From assembly GCA_027490265.1 (NCBI GenBank), contig JAIXYL010000015.1, positions 1 through 32,342 of the forward strand: DNA of 32,342 nucleotides, read 5' to 3'. The DNA is from Sediminibacterium sp. GTDB lineage: Bacteria > Bacteroidota > Bacteroidia > Chitinophagales > Chitinophagaceae. Position numbers and translations under genes: made by a program. The first letter of the stretch is position 1; each line of letters begins with the position of its first letter. Shown in pieces: positions 2,823-8,435 of the stretch. The notes under the pieces were generated by a model. That model did no database searches and was not told the DNA's origin. It saw nothing but the letters and a program-made list of their open reading frames with translations.

Positions 2823-3860
2823 TTATTTCAATAATCGTGCCTGATAGATTCGATTGATTAGCCCAACTGTATTTTTGCCTTCTTCAATAGTAGTATAATA
2901 AGTTTGTTGATGCAAAAGTGTAGCTACCAAAGCATCATACACTTTGTAGTGGTTGCGCATGCTTCCTTGATAATGGCCATAATCATTCGCGGTTTTCACT
3001 TCTTTTTTTACCCTATCATATGCTTGATGAATGGAAAGCGTCAATGCATCATCATCCATGTTCACCTCCAACTCATTCAAATAAGCGCCGCCTGCTTTTA
3101 CAGTACCTTTTTCTGCAATGATGGTTAATGATCCTTCACGATTGGCAATTGGCTCATTCACAGAATAGGCCATCTGCGCATGAATACCTGATTCAAATAT
3201 GATTTGCAAATCGCCTTCATCTTCAAATTGCATTAAGCCTTGATGCAGTCGATTGCGCAACTGAGCCGTAACGGTTGATACAGGTCCAAATAACCAACAC
3301 AATAAATCAATGAAATGACTGAACTGCGTGAATAATGTACCGCCATCTAAATCTAAAGTGCCATGCCAACTATTGATATAGTAAGCCGCAGGTCGATGCC
3401 AAAAACAATTGACTTGAACTTCTTGAATTTTTCCCAATGCTTGTTTTTGCAATAAGTCGTACAGCATTTGTACTGGTGGATTAAAGCGGTTTTGCATTAC
3501 CAAGAACACTTGTTTACCCGTAGCTAAAGAAACGCTATGCATGGCTTCTGCAGCATCCACTGTAAGCGCCATAGGCTTCTCCACCAATACATGGTAACCA
3601 GCTTGCATGGCTTCTATAGCCTGCGTTGCGTGTAATCCATTGGGTGTTGCTATCACCACAACATCAATGGGTAAATGAGCCGCAAATAGGTCGGCGGCAC
3701 TGTCAAAAAAAGGTGCTTGATACAGATCAGCCATTCGCTTGGCTTTTGCTACATCAATGTCTACTACAGCGCTTAAAACCCCAACACGATTGATTTGCGC
3801 AAGATGCTCTGCGGCAATATTGCCACAGCCAATTAAGGCAAAATGAATGGATGTAGGCAT
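2823..3860 (-). CDS. Gfo/Idh/MocA-family sugar dehydrogenase, WlbA/WbpB-like
   Basis: 345 residues. An N-terminal Rossmann domain begins FALIGCGNIAAEHL (residues 7-20), with VVIATPNGLHATQA and the family hallmark EKP at residues 94-96. The C-terminal half has the substrate-binding sheet with QNRFNPPVQ, the SWHGTLDLDGGTLFTQFSHFIDLLCWLFG-type stretch and downstream strands. These features resemble UDP-N-acetylglucosaminuronate 3-dehydrogenases (WbpB/WlbA) more than inositol or glucose oxidoreductases. Its start overlaps the upstream murU-like stop by one base (TAATG), which implies translational coupling. Pairing with the WbpD-like acetyltransferase supports nucleotide-sugar modification, but the substrate is inferred. 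Confidence 0.86.
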   Translation of the reverse strand: MPTSIHFALIGCGNIAAEHLAQINRVGVLSAVVDIDVAKAKRMADLYQAPFFDSAADLFAAHLPIDVVVIATPNGLHATQAIEAMQAGYHVLVEKPMALTVDAAEAMHSVSLATGKQVFLVMQNRFNPPVQMLYDLLQKQALGKIQEVQVNCFWHRPAAYYINSWHGTLDLDGGTLFTQFSHFIDLLCWLFGPVSTVTAQLRNRLHQGLMQFEDEGDLQIIFESGIHAQMAYSVNEPIANREGSLTIIAEKGTVKAGGAYLNELEVNMDDDALTLSIHQAYDRVKKEVKTANDYGHYQGSMRNHYKVYDALVATLLHQQTYYTTIEEGKNTVGLINRIYQARLLK

Positions 3861-4579
3861 TAAGGAAATAAGTTGGCGGCTTTGGTTAAACTCTCAGGCT
3901 TTCCTACATCTAATAACAAAGCACCGGTATGATCAAAGCCATAAATATGTTCTGTATCGCATAAAGCTAAATACACATCTACCATTGAAAATTTACCGGT
4001 CTGATTTATTTTGCTGAACAATGCTTGTTGAATCACGTGTATGCCACTGAATGCGCGCTTATGCAATCCAGTGGTATCAAGGCCTGCAGGTTTTACTTCA
4101 CCAGTTCCTTCGTGCTTCCAACCTTTTAATTGGCTGTCTTCACCAAATAAAAAATAACGGCTGCTGGTTCTTTGTGAAACAGCCAATGTAGCCAAAGCCC
4201 CTGTTTCTTTATGTTGTTGAATCATTTGATCCAATTGCATATTGGTGAGTATATCGGCATTCATTAATACCATATGCGCGTCCCCATTAAAATAAGGCGC
4301 TGCTTTTTTTAATCCGCCACCTGTTTCTAATACCACATCTGTTTCATCGGAAATAATGATTTTAGATCCCCAGCCATGATTGGCTTCAACTGCCTCAATA
4401 ATTTGATCAGCAAAATGATGCACATTAACCACCACTTCTTTAATACCATATTGTTGTAAATACAAAATATTTCGCTGCAACAAAGACTTCCCATTTACTG
4501 GCGCCAATGCTTTGGGATGTTCATCCGTCCAAGGTTTTAATCTTGTTCCCAATCCGGCTGCTAAAATCATTGCTTTCAT
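3860..4579 (-). CDS. murU: NDP-sugar nucleotidyltransferase, MurU-like (MurNAc-1-P uridylyltransferase family)
   Basis: 239 residues of a nucleotidyltransferase GT-A-like fold. The signature GLGTRLKPWTDEHPK sits at residues 9-23, followed by PVNGKSLLQRNI, LETGGGLKKA and the metal-binding NADIL (usually GDxL). Length and the LETGGG motif match MurU, which makes UDP-MurNAc from MurNAc-1-phosphate in the cell-wall recycling bypass of de novo synthesis. It is encoded 8 bp after an AmgK-like kinase, the enzyme that would supply the sugar-1-phosphate, which is the usual amgK-murU pair. A hexose-1-phosphate guanylyl- or uridylyltransferase of other specificity cannot be excluded from sequence alone. 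Confidence 0.82.
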   Translation of the reverse strand: MKAMILAAGLGTRLKPWTDEHPKALAPVNGKSLLQRNILYLQQYGIKEVVVNVHHFADQIIEAVEANHGWGSKIIISDETDVVLETGGGLKKAAPYFNGDAHMVLMNADILTNMQLDQMIQQHKETGALATLAVSQRTSSRYFLFGEDSQLKGWKHEGTGEVKPAGLDTTGLHKRAFSGIHVIQQALFSKINQTGKFSMVDVYLALCDTEHIYGFDHTGALLLDVGKPESLTKAANLFP

Positions 4580-4587
4580 ATCATGCG

Positions 4588-6027
4588 CTATTTAACCCAG
4601 TTGGCACTATTGGTGTGCGTTAAATTGACTTTTACTTTGTATTTGTTTCTAAGATGTCTGGCTGTTTGTTCTGCTGCATATACACTGCGGTGCTGCCCAC
4701 CCGTGCAACCAAAATTAATCATCAAATGCGCAAACCCTCTGTTTAAATAATCTTCAACGGTAATGTCTATCAAATCCCAAACACTATTTAAGTATTTGTC
4801 CATCTTGGTTCTTTGTTCTAAGAAATCTTGAACTGGCTTGTCTTTTCCGGTTTGTTTTTTATACTCATCAAATCTTCCCGGATTTAAAATGCCACGCATA
4901 TCAAACATGAATCCACCCCCATTTTCTGTGTCGTCTAATGGAATGCCACGCTTATAACTAAAGCTATTGACTTCTATTACCAACGGCGTTTGTTCATTGG
5001 CTTGTGGTGCAATAAATTTGTTGATCATTTGATCATCCACTACCAATTTAAGTACGCGATCAAATTCAGGTGTTACAATGCCTACACGTTTATGCGTGAT
5101 AAAAAATTGCAGATTCTGTAACGCCAACGGAATACTGGCTAAGAAATGTGCTTTTCTCTCAAACAGCCCCCTAAATCCATAAGCACCCAATACTTGCAAC
5201 AATCGAATTAAAACATACCCATTGTATTGGCTCACAAACGTAATGCGATCAACTGGTTCGGGTAACAAAGGATCCACTTGATCCATATAATATTCTAACA
5301 ATCGGTCTTTCCATTCCTCACTCAATTCTGCTTTTGCTTGCCATAATAAAGAAGCCACATCGTATTGCAATGCGCCCTGCATACCCCCTTGGTAATCTAT
5401 AAAATGGACCTGATCATTTTGCACGATAATATTTCTACTTTGAAAATCACGGAACATAAAAAACTTGTTCTGCGTTCTGGTTAAATAAGTACTCAGTGCA
5501 TCAAAATCATCCAGCATGGCTTGCTTATCGTATGGCAATTGCAGGGTGTCTAAAAAATAATATTTAAAGTACAACAGATCACTCATGATGGCCTGCTTAC
5601 CAAATTCTTTCGCTGTTAAACACCAAGCATAATCTAAACCTTGATGGCCCAAAACTTGCATTCTGGCCAGTTGCGCCAAACTCTGTTGAAACAATTGGTA
5701 CAGATAATCACCATGTCCATGCGTTTCCAGTTTATTCAACAAGGATGCCGTTCCCAGGTCTTCTTGCAAATAAATGGTACTCTCTGCATTAACGCCTACG
5801 ATGGCTGGCACCGGTAAATTGGCTTGCTTAAAATGCTGGCTAAAATGTACAAATGTGGCGGTTTCCTTGGTATTGATATTGTAAGTGGCAATCCAAGTTT
5901 GGGTGCCGGCATATACCCTGAAATACACTCGGTCACTGCCACTCTGGGGCAGTTTTTCAATTCTATCTGGTGTTAACTTGAGTATTTGTTGACACAATGC
6001 TTCAATTGCTGCGATAACTGATTCCAT
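4588..6027 (-). CDS. AmgK-like sugar 1-kinase fused to a RapZ C-terminal domain
   Basis: 479 residues with two parts. Residues about 1-320 form an aminoglycoside-phosphotransferase-type kinase: catalytic loop RDFQSRN at 193-199 (HRD-like, with Arg in place of His as part of FRD) and metal-binding IDYQGG at 210-215. This matches the anomeric MurNAc/GlcNAc kinase AmgK. Residues about 348-470 match the C-terminal domain of RapZ, including FDMRGILNPG and the signature GCTGGQHRSV (440-449). The RapZ N-terminal P-loop domain is absent. In E. coli this RapZ domain is known to bind the GlmY/GlmZ small RNAs and to sense amino-sugar status. Here it may sense the kinase's own pathway. First gene of the four-gene operon, 8 bp before the MurU-like gene. 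Confidence 0.85.
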   Translation of the reverse strand: MESVIAAIEALCQQILKLTPDRIEKLPQSGSDRVYFRVYAGTQTWIATYNINTKETATFVHFSQHFKQANLPVPAIVGVNAESTIYLQEDLGTASLLNKLETHGHGDYLYQLFQQSLAQLARMQVLGHQGLDYAWCLTAKEFGKQAIMSDLLYFKYYFLDTLQLPYDKQAMLDDFDALSTYLTRTQNKFFMFRDFQSRNIIVQNDQVHFIDYQGGMQGALQYDVASLLWQAKAELSEEWKDRLLEYYMDQVDPLLPEPVDRITFVSQYNGYVLIRLLQVLGAYGFRGLFERKAHFLASIPLALQNLQFFITHKRVGIVTPEFDRVLKLVVDDQMINKFIAPQANEQTPLVIEVNSFSYKRGIPLDDTENGGGFMFDMRGILNPGRFDEYKKQTGKDKPVQDFLEQRTKMDKYLNSVWDLIDITVEDYLNRGFAHLMINFGCTGGQHRSVYAAEQTARHLRNKYKVKVNLTHTNSANWVK

Positions 6028-6642: not shown

Positions 6643-6673
6643 TTTAGTATAAATTTACTAAATTATTTAGTAA
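6643..6673. promoter_or_regulatory. Candidate operator: 19-bp perfect palindrome plus extra half-site between divergent genes
   Basis: Bases 6655-6673 read TTACTAAATTATTTAGTAA: two 9-base arms, perfectly complementary around a single T. A further TTTAGTA half-site lies at 6643-6649, giving three related half-sites in 31 bp. They occupy the middle of the only intergenic space between the 2H-like gene and umuD (starts 6617 and 6689). The position and symmetry suggest a dimeric repressor controlling both directions, possibly a damage-response (SOS-type) regulator. No known box was matched. Confidence 0.5.
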
Positions 6674-6688
6674 GTAAAAATTTATTTT

Positions 6689-7123
6689 ATGGATGGGGAA
6701 ATCGGGTACGGAGCCGCCTATAAGGGCTCTAAGCAATACACACAGTGGGAAGTACCTACTGCCAATGCCACAGGGTTTGGGGCGGCTGCCGACGATTATA
6801 TGGAACGAGGCATCGACTTAAACGAACAATTGGTGCACAACAAGCCAGCTACTTTTTTCTTTCGCATGAACAGCGACGCCATGATTGGAGCGGGCATTTT
6901 TAGCGGCGACACTTTAGTGGTAGACCGAAGCATTAAACCCGTCAGTGGCAAAATCATTATTGCCATTTTAGATGGCGAATTGTTGGTGCGGCGGTTGCAC
7001 AAAAATTTTAACCAATTAACCTTAGTGGCCGAGAACAAAAAATTTTCGGATATACCACTCAGCGGTTTCGACGAACGTGCCCAGGTATGGGGCGTTGTAA
7101 CGTATTCAATCCACGCAGTGTAA
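6689..7123 (+). CDS. umuD: UmuD-like S24/LexA-family protein with lost cleavage dyad
   Basis: 144 residues aligning along their length with E. coli UmuD (139 aa): GFGAAADDYMERGIDLNEQL matches the UmuD post-cleavage segment GFPSPAADYVEQRIDLNQLL, and DGELLVRRL matches DGEFTVKKL. UmuD normally cuts its own N-terminus upon RecA activation, and UmuD' then forms Pol V with UmuC. Here the catalytic Ser60 position is Ala64 (NSDAMIGAG versus GDSMIDGG), the Lys97 position is Arg101, and the cleavage site Cys24-Gly25 is Thr28-Gly29. An in-frame stop at 6671-6673 rules out a longer N-terminus or DNA-binding domain. The fold and dimer core appear kept, autoproteolysis is very unlikely. The umuC gene follows after 31 bp. 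Standard tools would label it an autoproteolytic subunit, which the sequence contradicts. Confidence 0.9.
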   Translation: MDGEIGYGAAYKGSKQYTQWEVPTANATGFGAAADDYMERGIDLNEQLVHNKPATFFFRMNSDAMIGAGIFSGDTLVVDRSIKPVSGKIIIAILDGELLVRRLHKNFNQLTLVAENKKFSDIPLSGFDERAQVWGVVTYSIHAV

Positions 7124-7154: not shown

Positions 7155-8435
7155 ATGATTGGCATTATTGATTGTAATAGTTTTTATTGTTCCTGCGAAA
7201 GGCTGTTCTTACCTGCGCTGCAGCATGCACCCGTTGTGGTACTCAGCAACAACGACGGTTGCATTGTGTCGCGCAGCGATGAAGCCAAACAAGTAGGCGT
7301 GGCCATGGGCGTGCCCTATTTTCAGGCCAAGCAACTGATTGAACAAAAAGGCGTGCATACATTTTCTTCCAACTATAATTTATATGGGGATCTAAGCTGG
7401 CGCGTTATGGAAACCCTGCGGCAACTTTTACCCGCCGGGGCTGTAGAAGTGTATTCGGTGGATGAATGCTTTGTAACGCTCGATCATATTGCAACAGACC
7501 AATTAACGGCGTTTTCAATCCACCTAAAAGATACAGTGGAACAATGGACAGGTATTAAAGTATCAATTGGTGTTGCAACCACCAAAGTTTTGAGTAAAGT
7601 GGCCAATCGATTGGCCAAAAAAAATAAGGCAGCCACCAATTGCATCATGGTACTTGATTCGCCAGAAAGTATTGCAGAGGCTTTGCAGCGAACGGCTGTT
7701 GAAGACATTTGGGGAATCGGCAGGCAGTATGCGGAAAAATTGCGCAAATACAATATTAATACGGCTTTTGATTTACGCAGTATGCCAGCTGCATGGGTAC
7801 AAAAAAACTTAGGCGGCATTGTTGGTCAACGATTGCTCAGAGAATTGAACGGTATCCCCAGTATAGAAATGAAAGACCCCTTGATCAATAAAAAAATGAT
7901 TGCCACTACGCGTATGTTTGGTAAAAATGTTACCAGCAAAGAACAGATTAAAGAAGCCATTGCCACTTATATTACGCGAGCTGCAGAAAAATTAAGAAGG
8001 CAACAATCTGCCGCTTCAGTAATTTATGTTTTTGTGATACCCAAACAAGAACACCAGGGCGGCAAATTCAGACATGGCAACAGCGTGGGCGGATACGTGC
8101 ATTTACCGCATGCCACAGCATCTACCCATCAACTCATCAAGCCAGCAGTAGCACTGGCTGCACAATTGTATCAAGAAGGCTGTGTGTATAAAAAAGCAGG
8201 TGTCATCTTAAGCAATATTGTACCAGATGAATCGGTACAGGGGAATTTGTTTGCAGACAAGATACCACAACAAAACAGGTTGCTCATGCATACCATTGAC
8301 AATATCAACTTTGCCATGCGCAACGACATCATCCAATTTGCAACGGCAGGCACAAAACGCAATTGGAAAATGCGCCAAGAACTCCGCAGTCCGCGCTACA
8401 CATCGCGATGGGAAGAATTGCGTGAAGTGCAATAA
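7155..8435 (+). CDS. umuC: Y-family translesion DNA polymerase V catalytic subunit UmuC
   Basis: 426 residues, the usual UmuC length (E. coli 422). The palm motifs are intact: IIDCNSFYCSCERLF at the N-terminus holds the first catalytic Asp, LSNNDGCIVSRSDEAK follows, and VYSVDECF supplies the second Asp and Glu. A helix-hairpin-helix region (VEDIWGIGRQYAEKLRKYNI) and little-finger domain are present. QGNLF at residues 362-366 matches the beta-clamp-binding QxxLF of UmuC, so the enzyme should still dock on the sliding clamp. It therefore looks fully functional although its UmuD partner has lost the self-cleavage residues. Convergent with the next gene, leaving 18 bp. Confidence 0.96.
   Translation: MIGIIDCNSFYCSCERLFLPALQHAPVVVLSNNDGCIVSRSDEAKQVGVAMGVPYFQAKQLIEQKGVHTFSSNYNLYGDLSWRVMETLRQLLPAGAVEVYSVDECFVTLDHIATDQLTAFSIHLKDTVEQWTGIKVSIGVATTKVLSKVANRLAKKNKAATNCIMVLDSPESIAEALQRTAVEDIWGIGRQYAEKLRKYNINTAFDLRSMPAAWVQKNLGGIVGQRLLRELNGIPSIEMKDPLINKKMIATTRMFGKNVTSKEQIKEAIATYITRAAEKLRRQQSAASVIYVFVIPKQEHQGGKFRHGNSVGGYVHLPHATASTHQLIKPAVALAAQLYQEGCVYKKAGVILSNIVPDESVQGNLFADKIPQQNRLLMHTIDNINFAMRNDIIQFATAGTKRNWKMRQELRSPRYTSRWEELREVQ

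Follow-up and report, generated by a model that had tools for sequence, protein, structure and literature searches.

UmuD of Chitinophagaceae lacks the self-cleavage dyad and probably serves Pol V in its uncleaved form

In the textbook view, Pol V, an error-prone DNA polymerase, stays inactive until damage becomes severe, and the post-translational switch that ensures this is the self-cleavage of UmuD. In Escherichia coli, UmuD with the Ser60Ala exchange stays full-length and suppresses mutagenesis (PMC3901139), and published models of E. coli Pol V, AlphaFold models among them, place the arm of UmuD near the UmuC active site, in the UmuC cleft (PMC11791011; PMC12926913). UmuD homologues that work without self-cleavage are represented by HumD of the phages P1, N15 and HK140. 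P1 HumD is annotated in databases as complementing UmuD', and, in our reading of the alignment, the nucleophile motif is eroded in the N15 and HK140 proteins as well. HumD starts at the cleavage site (MGFPSPA), so that it has no arm, and it keeps the lysine (IKR). In a lineage that lacks LexA, UmuDAb of Acinetobacter is a UmuD that has taken on a non-standard role; according to the consulted sections of a 2021 publication, it has a DNA-binding domain and still cleaves itself (PMC8565304). The same sections describe CTAA-N5-TTAG as the SOS regulon motif of a non-canonical LexA in Bacteroidetes and cover the control of umuDC, and they carry no remark on the catalytic residues of UmuD (PMC8565304).

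Here we analyzed a stretch of 32,342 nucleotides from Sediminibacterium sp. (contig JAIXYL010000015.1), hereafter the window, which carries the umuD gene listed in Table 1. The encoded protein is a UmuD in sequence, fold and linkage to umuC. It scored 128.8 bits against the NCBIfam model of the Pol V autoproteolytic subunit (NF007621, curated cut-off 110) and 79.5 bits against PF00717 of Pfam, and its top match among PDB sequences was E. coli UmuD' (E 6e-19). In the AlphaFold2 monomer the core was mostly modeled with pLDDT >90, and the top Foldseek match of the model was 1umu, with a TM score of 0.88 by target. The window UmuD thus has in common with E. coli UmuD and UmuD' the fold, the umuD-umuC operon order and SOS-type control, whereas it lacks both the Ser/Lys dyad and the Cys-Gly bond. 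The alignment to the PDB sequence places Ala64 (GCC) at Ser60, Arg101 (CGG) at Lys97 and Thr28-Gly29 at Cys24-Gly25, each residue just as the original prediction had read it. Neither the serine nucleophile and lysine general base of S24 autoproteolysis nor an Ala-Gly or Cys-Gly scissile bond is therefore present. Unlike UmuDAb, the window UmuD has neither the dyad nor, in a Pfam profile search, a DNA-binding domain. It also differs from HumD, because 28 residues precede Gly29 and the arm is full-length and conserved throughout its clade.

Table 1. Features of the umuDC locus in the window
Feature	Position	Strand	Basis
SOS operator, three half-sites TTTAGTATAAATTTACTAAATTATTTAGTA; CTAA-N5-TTAG at 6658-6670	6643-6672	.	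palindrome and family conservation
umuD, 144 aa, dyad replaced (Ala64, Arg101)	6689-7123	+	ORF, family models, PDB alignment, 147 loci
umuD N-terminal arm, residues 1-23; near-invariant Y11, G13, K15, Q19	6689-6757	+	family alignment; dN/dS 0.216
umuD residues 24-46, TANATGFGAAADDYMERGIDLNE; ex-cleavage site Thr28-Gly29 and arm	6758-6826	+	dN/dS 0.021; identity 0.93 vs 0.65
Codon GCC, Ala64, facing catalytic Ser60	6878-6880	+	DNA; E. coli alignment; family loci
Codon CGG, Arg101, facing catalytic Lys97	6989-6991	+	DNA; E. coli alignment; family loci
umuC, 426 aa, intact Y-family polymerase; clamp-like motif QGNLF; C-terminal tail aligns with that of E. coli UmuC	7155-8435	+	

A homologue was present in 185 of the 299 Chitinophagaceae genomes, and the named genomes nearest to the window UmuD, at 99% identity, are those of Sediminibacterium, a member of this family. 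For residue counts we used 147 Chitinophagaceae loci with at least 50% identity. When these were aligned, as the original prediction had proposed, the replaced pair proved to be conserved: all 147 loci carry Arg at position 101, and at position 64 there are 137 with Ala, eight with Ser, one with Thr and one with Cys. Residue 28 is Thr in 130 loci, Asn in 11 and Ser in five. Among 80 named genomes, 77 have Ala/Arg and three Ser/Arg. Since the family loci and the named genomes agree, Ala64 and Arg101 are neither a private mutation nor chance, and an error of sequencing or assembly was rejected because many independent genomes share both residues. In contrast, the canonical Ser/Lys pair was found in 25 of the 25 homologues read from outside Chitinophagaceae in a class-wide sample; some of the more distant homologues within the family are canonical, too.

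In a tree computed without the two diagnostic columns (positions 64 and 101), the window UmuD fell into a clade of 59 rows with an SH-aLRT support of 100, and separate losses of the dyad appeared in another part of Chitinophagaceae. In a wider FastTree reconstruction, all 234 rows have Arg and the root is reconstructed with Ala, followed by about nine later changes at position 64 and none at position 101, albeit with a low support of 0.42 for the 234-row node itself; the next node outward has a support of 0.998. A single ancestral loss of the dyad accompanied by rarer parallel losses fits the tree. At the level of sequence, the loss of the dyad in a functional UmuD is thus shown family-wide, and the Ala/Arg pair is now fixed in the main lineage, where Arg never reverts and position 64 shifts between Ala, Ser, Thr and Cys.

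The substituted residues leave little room for a residual self-cleavage in which Ser62 or another nucleophile would act with Arg101 as the base. Arg is a poor general base. Ser62, which the original prediction had named as a weak alternative nucleophile, occurs in the window and others, in 32 of the 147 loci in total, and eight loci have Ser64. However, 112 of the 147 loci have Gly at position 62, on which ground we rejected Ser62 as the nucleophile, and the Ser64 loci never regained Lys. Serine that returns several times at position 64 without Lys is what would be expected of a site no longer doing chemistry. We consider residual self-cleavage highly improbable.

Purifying selection on the gene is strong. 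In 53 non-overlapping close pairs, Nei-Gojobori-style estimates of dN/dS, which are rough values given the high synonymous divergence, amounted to 0.107 for the whole gene, 0.216 for residues 1-23, 0.021 for residues 24-46 and 0.105 for residues 47-144. With this constraint and no internal stops, a pseudogene was rejected. The slowest-evolving part, with dN/dS of about 0.02, is the former cleavage site and its flank at residues 24-46, and Y11, G13, K15 and Q19 of the arm hardly vary among the family loci. The region around the old site is much better preserved than its counterpart in cleavable relatives: at matched core divergence, the pairwise identity was 0.93 against 0.65 for residues 24-46 and 0.55 against 0.27 for residues 1-23. 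The constraint and the excess of identity over cleavable UmuDs indicate that the former cleavage site is not a relic and serves a purpose different from self-cleavage.

One could read the almost invariant segment, Gly29 included, as the substrate of another protease that cuts UmuD at or near Thr28-Gly29, by which a UmuD' form would still arise. Residue 28 itself varies among Thr, Asn and Ser, however, and the residues flanking it are at least as constrained, for which a contact with UmuC is the alternative role we propose. No candidate protease was found. A search of the window's genome for S24 proteins yielded no second UmuD, the sole other member being a helix-turn-helix (HTH) regulator (L002), for which reason a cleavable second UmuD elsewhere in the genome was rejected as well. 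Such cleavage in trans is accordingly unlikely in our estimation.

The data point to UmuC as the probable partner of residues 24-46. When segments with at least 17 of the 23 consensus residues were scored as intact and those with at most nine as collapsed, 230 rows had an intact segment, and only four dyad-less homologues had a collapsed one. None of the four genomes concerned (G111, G107, G232 and G179) has a UmuC above 42% identity to that of the window, whereas each of the nine intact-segment genomes checked has one at 57-61% identity; the correlation comprises few cases, four loci and perhaps two events. In the window UmuD, the counterpart of the E. coli segment that enters the cleft is residues 29-46. 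The low confidence that AlphaFold2 mostly gave to residues 1-38, by which the model does not place the arm, fits a segment that might fold only on its partner.

As the original prediction had stated, umuD is intact, in frame and adjacent to an intact umuC, which starts 32 bp downstream. The umuC start lies at most 400 bp downstream of umuD in 120 of the first 167 loci; in the remaining ones a gene is inserted or umuC is found elsewhere, often divergent and near. The residues D6 and Y11 and the DE pair 103-104 are present in the window UmuC and in 102 of the 102 UmuCs linked to a dyad-less UmuD. Fifteen UmuC sites distinguish these from canonical UmuCs, some of them adjoining catalytic residues (4, 102); being scattered over all domains, they were set aside as proof of coevolution.

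The strongest rival to an uncut UmuD serving as Pol V subunit is a permanent brake, in which uncleaved UmuD would keep UmuC in a non-mutagenic, checkpoint-like complex, so that UmuDC delays replication and performs no lesion bypass. The suppression of mutagenesis by Ser60Ala in E. coli implies that uncleaved UmuD could be an inhibitor in Chitinophagaceae, too; a brake agrees with the phenotype of non-cleavable E. coli UmuD (PMC3901139; PMC5342242), and the arm is indeed kept and constrained in the main clade. Yet a pure brake would need none of the UmuC residues D6, Y11, D103 and E104 that all 102 linked copies have kept. Furthermore, other dyad-less UmuDs of the family have dispensed with the arm, which argues that the UmuD' form is useful there. 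Three Ala/Arg proteins (L114, L120 and L122) begin at what was the cleavage site and have their SOS box upstream, with a umuC-like sequence coming next in L120 and L122, and L109 combines Ser/Arg with a nine-residue arm. L114, L120 and L122 thus resemble HumD, whose start is likewise MGFPSPA, as an armless solution inside Chitinophagaceae, whereas the main clade kept the arm, and by analogy they support a cleavage-free Pol V that may have been reached by a different route. Although it is the most serious competitor, we regard the brake as rather unlikely, somewhat less so than cleavage by another protease.

Transcriptional control appears to have been retained. The predicted umuD operator contains a perfect palindrome of 17 bp at 6656-6672, and a CTAA-N5-TTAG box lies no more than 250 bp upstream of umuD in 141 of the 147 Chitinophagaceae loci, while permuted palindromes with an equal 5-base spacer occurred in 0-3 of 150. 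Operator half-sites also precede recA and the gene of the HTH-S24 regulator. In the latter protein the motifs GDSM, YKR and AAAG show the dyad and the Ala-Gly site to be intact. A match to the regulator (E<=0.001) was found in 113 of 120 Chitinophagaceae genomes, not all of them being orthologues. The window's genome therefore holds both elements of the Bacteroidetes non-canonical LexA regulon, the upstream motif and a Ser/Lys HTH-S24 regulator, and the motif in the consulted sections matches the umuD operator as well as the recA and regulator promoters here (PMC8565304). The link between operator and regulator is, as far as these sections go, already known since 2021 (PMC8565304). Canonical LexA is unneeded as the umuDC regulator, as the published non-canonical LexA explains the operator. 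The HTH-S24 protein is the presumed repressor at the umuDC promoter. As it keeps the dyad that UmuD lacks, the repressor would have retained the protease switch that UmuD has given up. A box resembling CTAA-N5-TTAG was also seen upstream of a canonical umuD from outside Chitinophagaceae (L052).

Our best inference is that full-length, uncleaved UmuD probably works as a Pol V subunit in Chitinophagaceae. UmuD of this family would no longer be a protease, after a single loss of the dyad in the main lineage. Pol V would still be controlled by damage at the level of transcription, but no longer at that of UmuD. The SOS box before umuDC would be read by the CI-like S24 repressor with its intact dyad and Ala-Gly site, and full-length UmuD, once made, would act as a structural subunit without self-cleavage. 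The segment that forms the free N-terminus of UmuD' in E. coli may still fit the cleft between Palm and Little-finger of UmuC, which would then accommodate the extra 28 residues of the uncut protein. More tentatively, the arm could be a built-in part of the polymerase, threaded through the UmuC cleft by the active site, with UmuD2C active without UmuD'; we consider this possible, at slightly less than even chances. That the uncut site is constrained, and that it has decayed in genomes lacking a matching UmuC, indirectly supports the uncut form as the working subunit. The family-wide fixation of the dyad loss, the purifying selection and the lack of another UmuD in the window's genome likewise favor the original suggestion that Pol V here either dispenses with UmuD autoproteolysis or employs the uncleaved form.

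In the literature searched, which covered few subscription journals, we found no earlier report of a dyad-less UmuD in Chitinophagaceae. If our reading is true, this would be a natural, family-wide loss of the UmuD switch in which SOS transcription, UmuC and the uncut site are kept, and it would show that the switch is dispensable. Structural studies would gain a Pol V that is uncuttable by nature, and the role of the arm would become testable once the arm is no longer a substrate. The label "autoproteolytic subunit" and similar database names are probably misnomers for the dyad-less UmuDs of Chitinophagaceae.

Several loci deviate in gene content. At L098, L100, L107 and L115, the arm of the dyad-less UmuD has decayed and the genome lacks a matching UmuC; these proteins are possibly solo UmuDs with another role. 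At L010, L011, L013, L014, L021, L030, L033, L154, L195 and L200, umuC does not come after the dyad-less umuD, and several loci of this group have a C-terminal UmuD extension. The next gene in L010, L011, L030, L033, L154, L195 and L200 resembles, by eye, a gene for a radical-SAM, SplB-like protein, of which a piece of 110 residues had no Pfam match; in L011 and L033 a divergent umuC lies about 1.6 kb off. Genes are inserted between umuD and umuC in L005, L135, L146 and others, some of the DUF559 type (by Pfam match for L005) and others small transposase-like ORFs. Elsewhere in the window, the minus-strand gene at 4588-6027 combines an APH-type phosphotransferase domain and a RapZ C-terminal domain in one protein, and a nucleotidyltransferase gene (3860-4579) adjoins this fusion gene.
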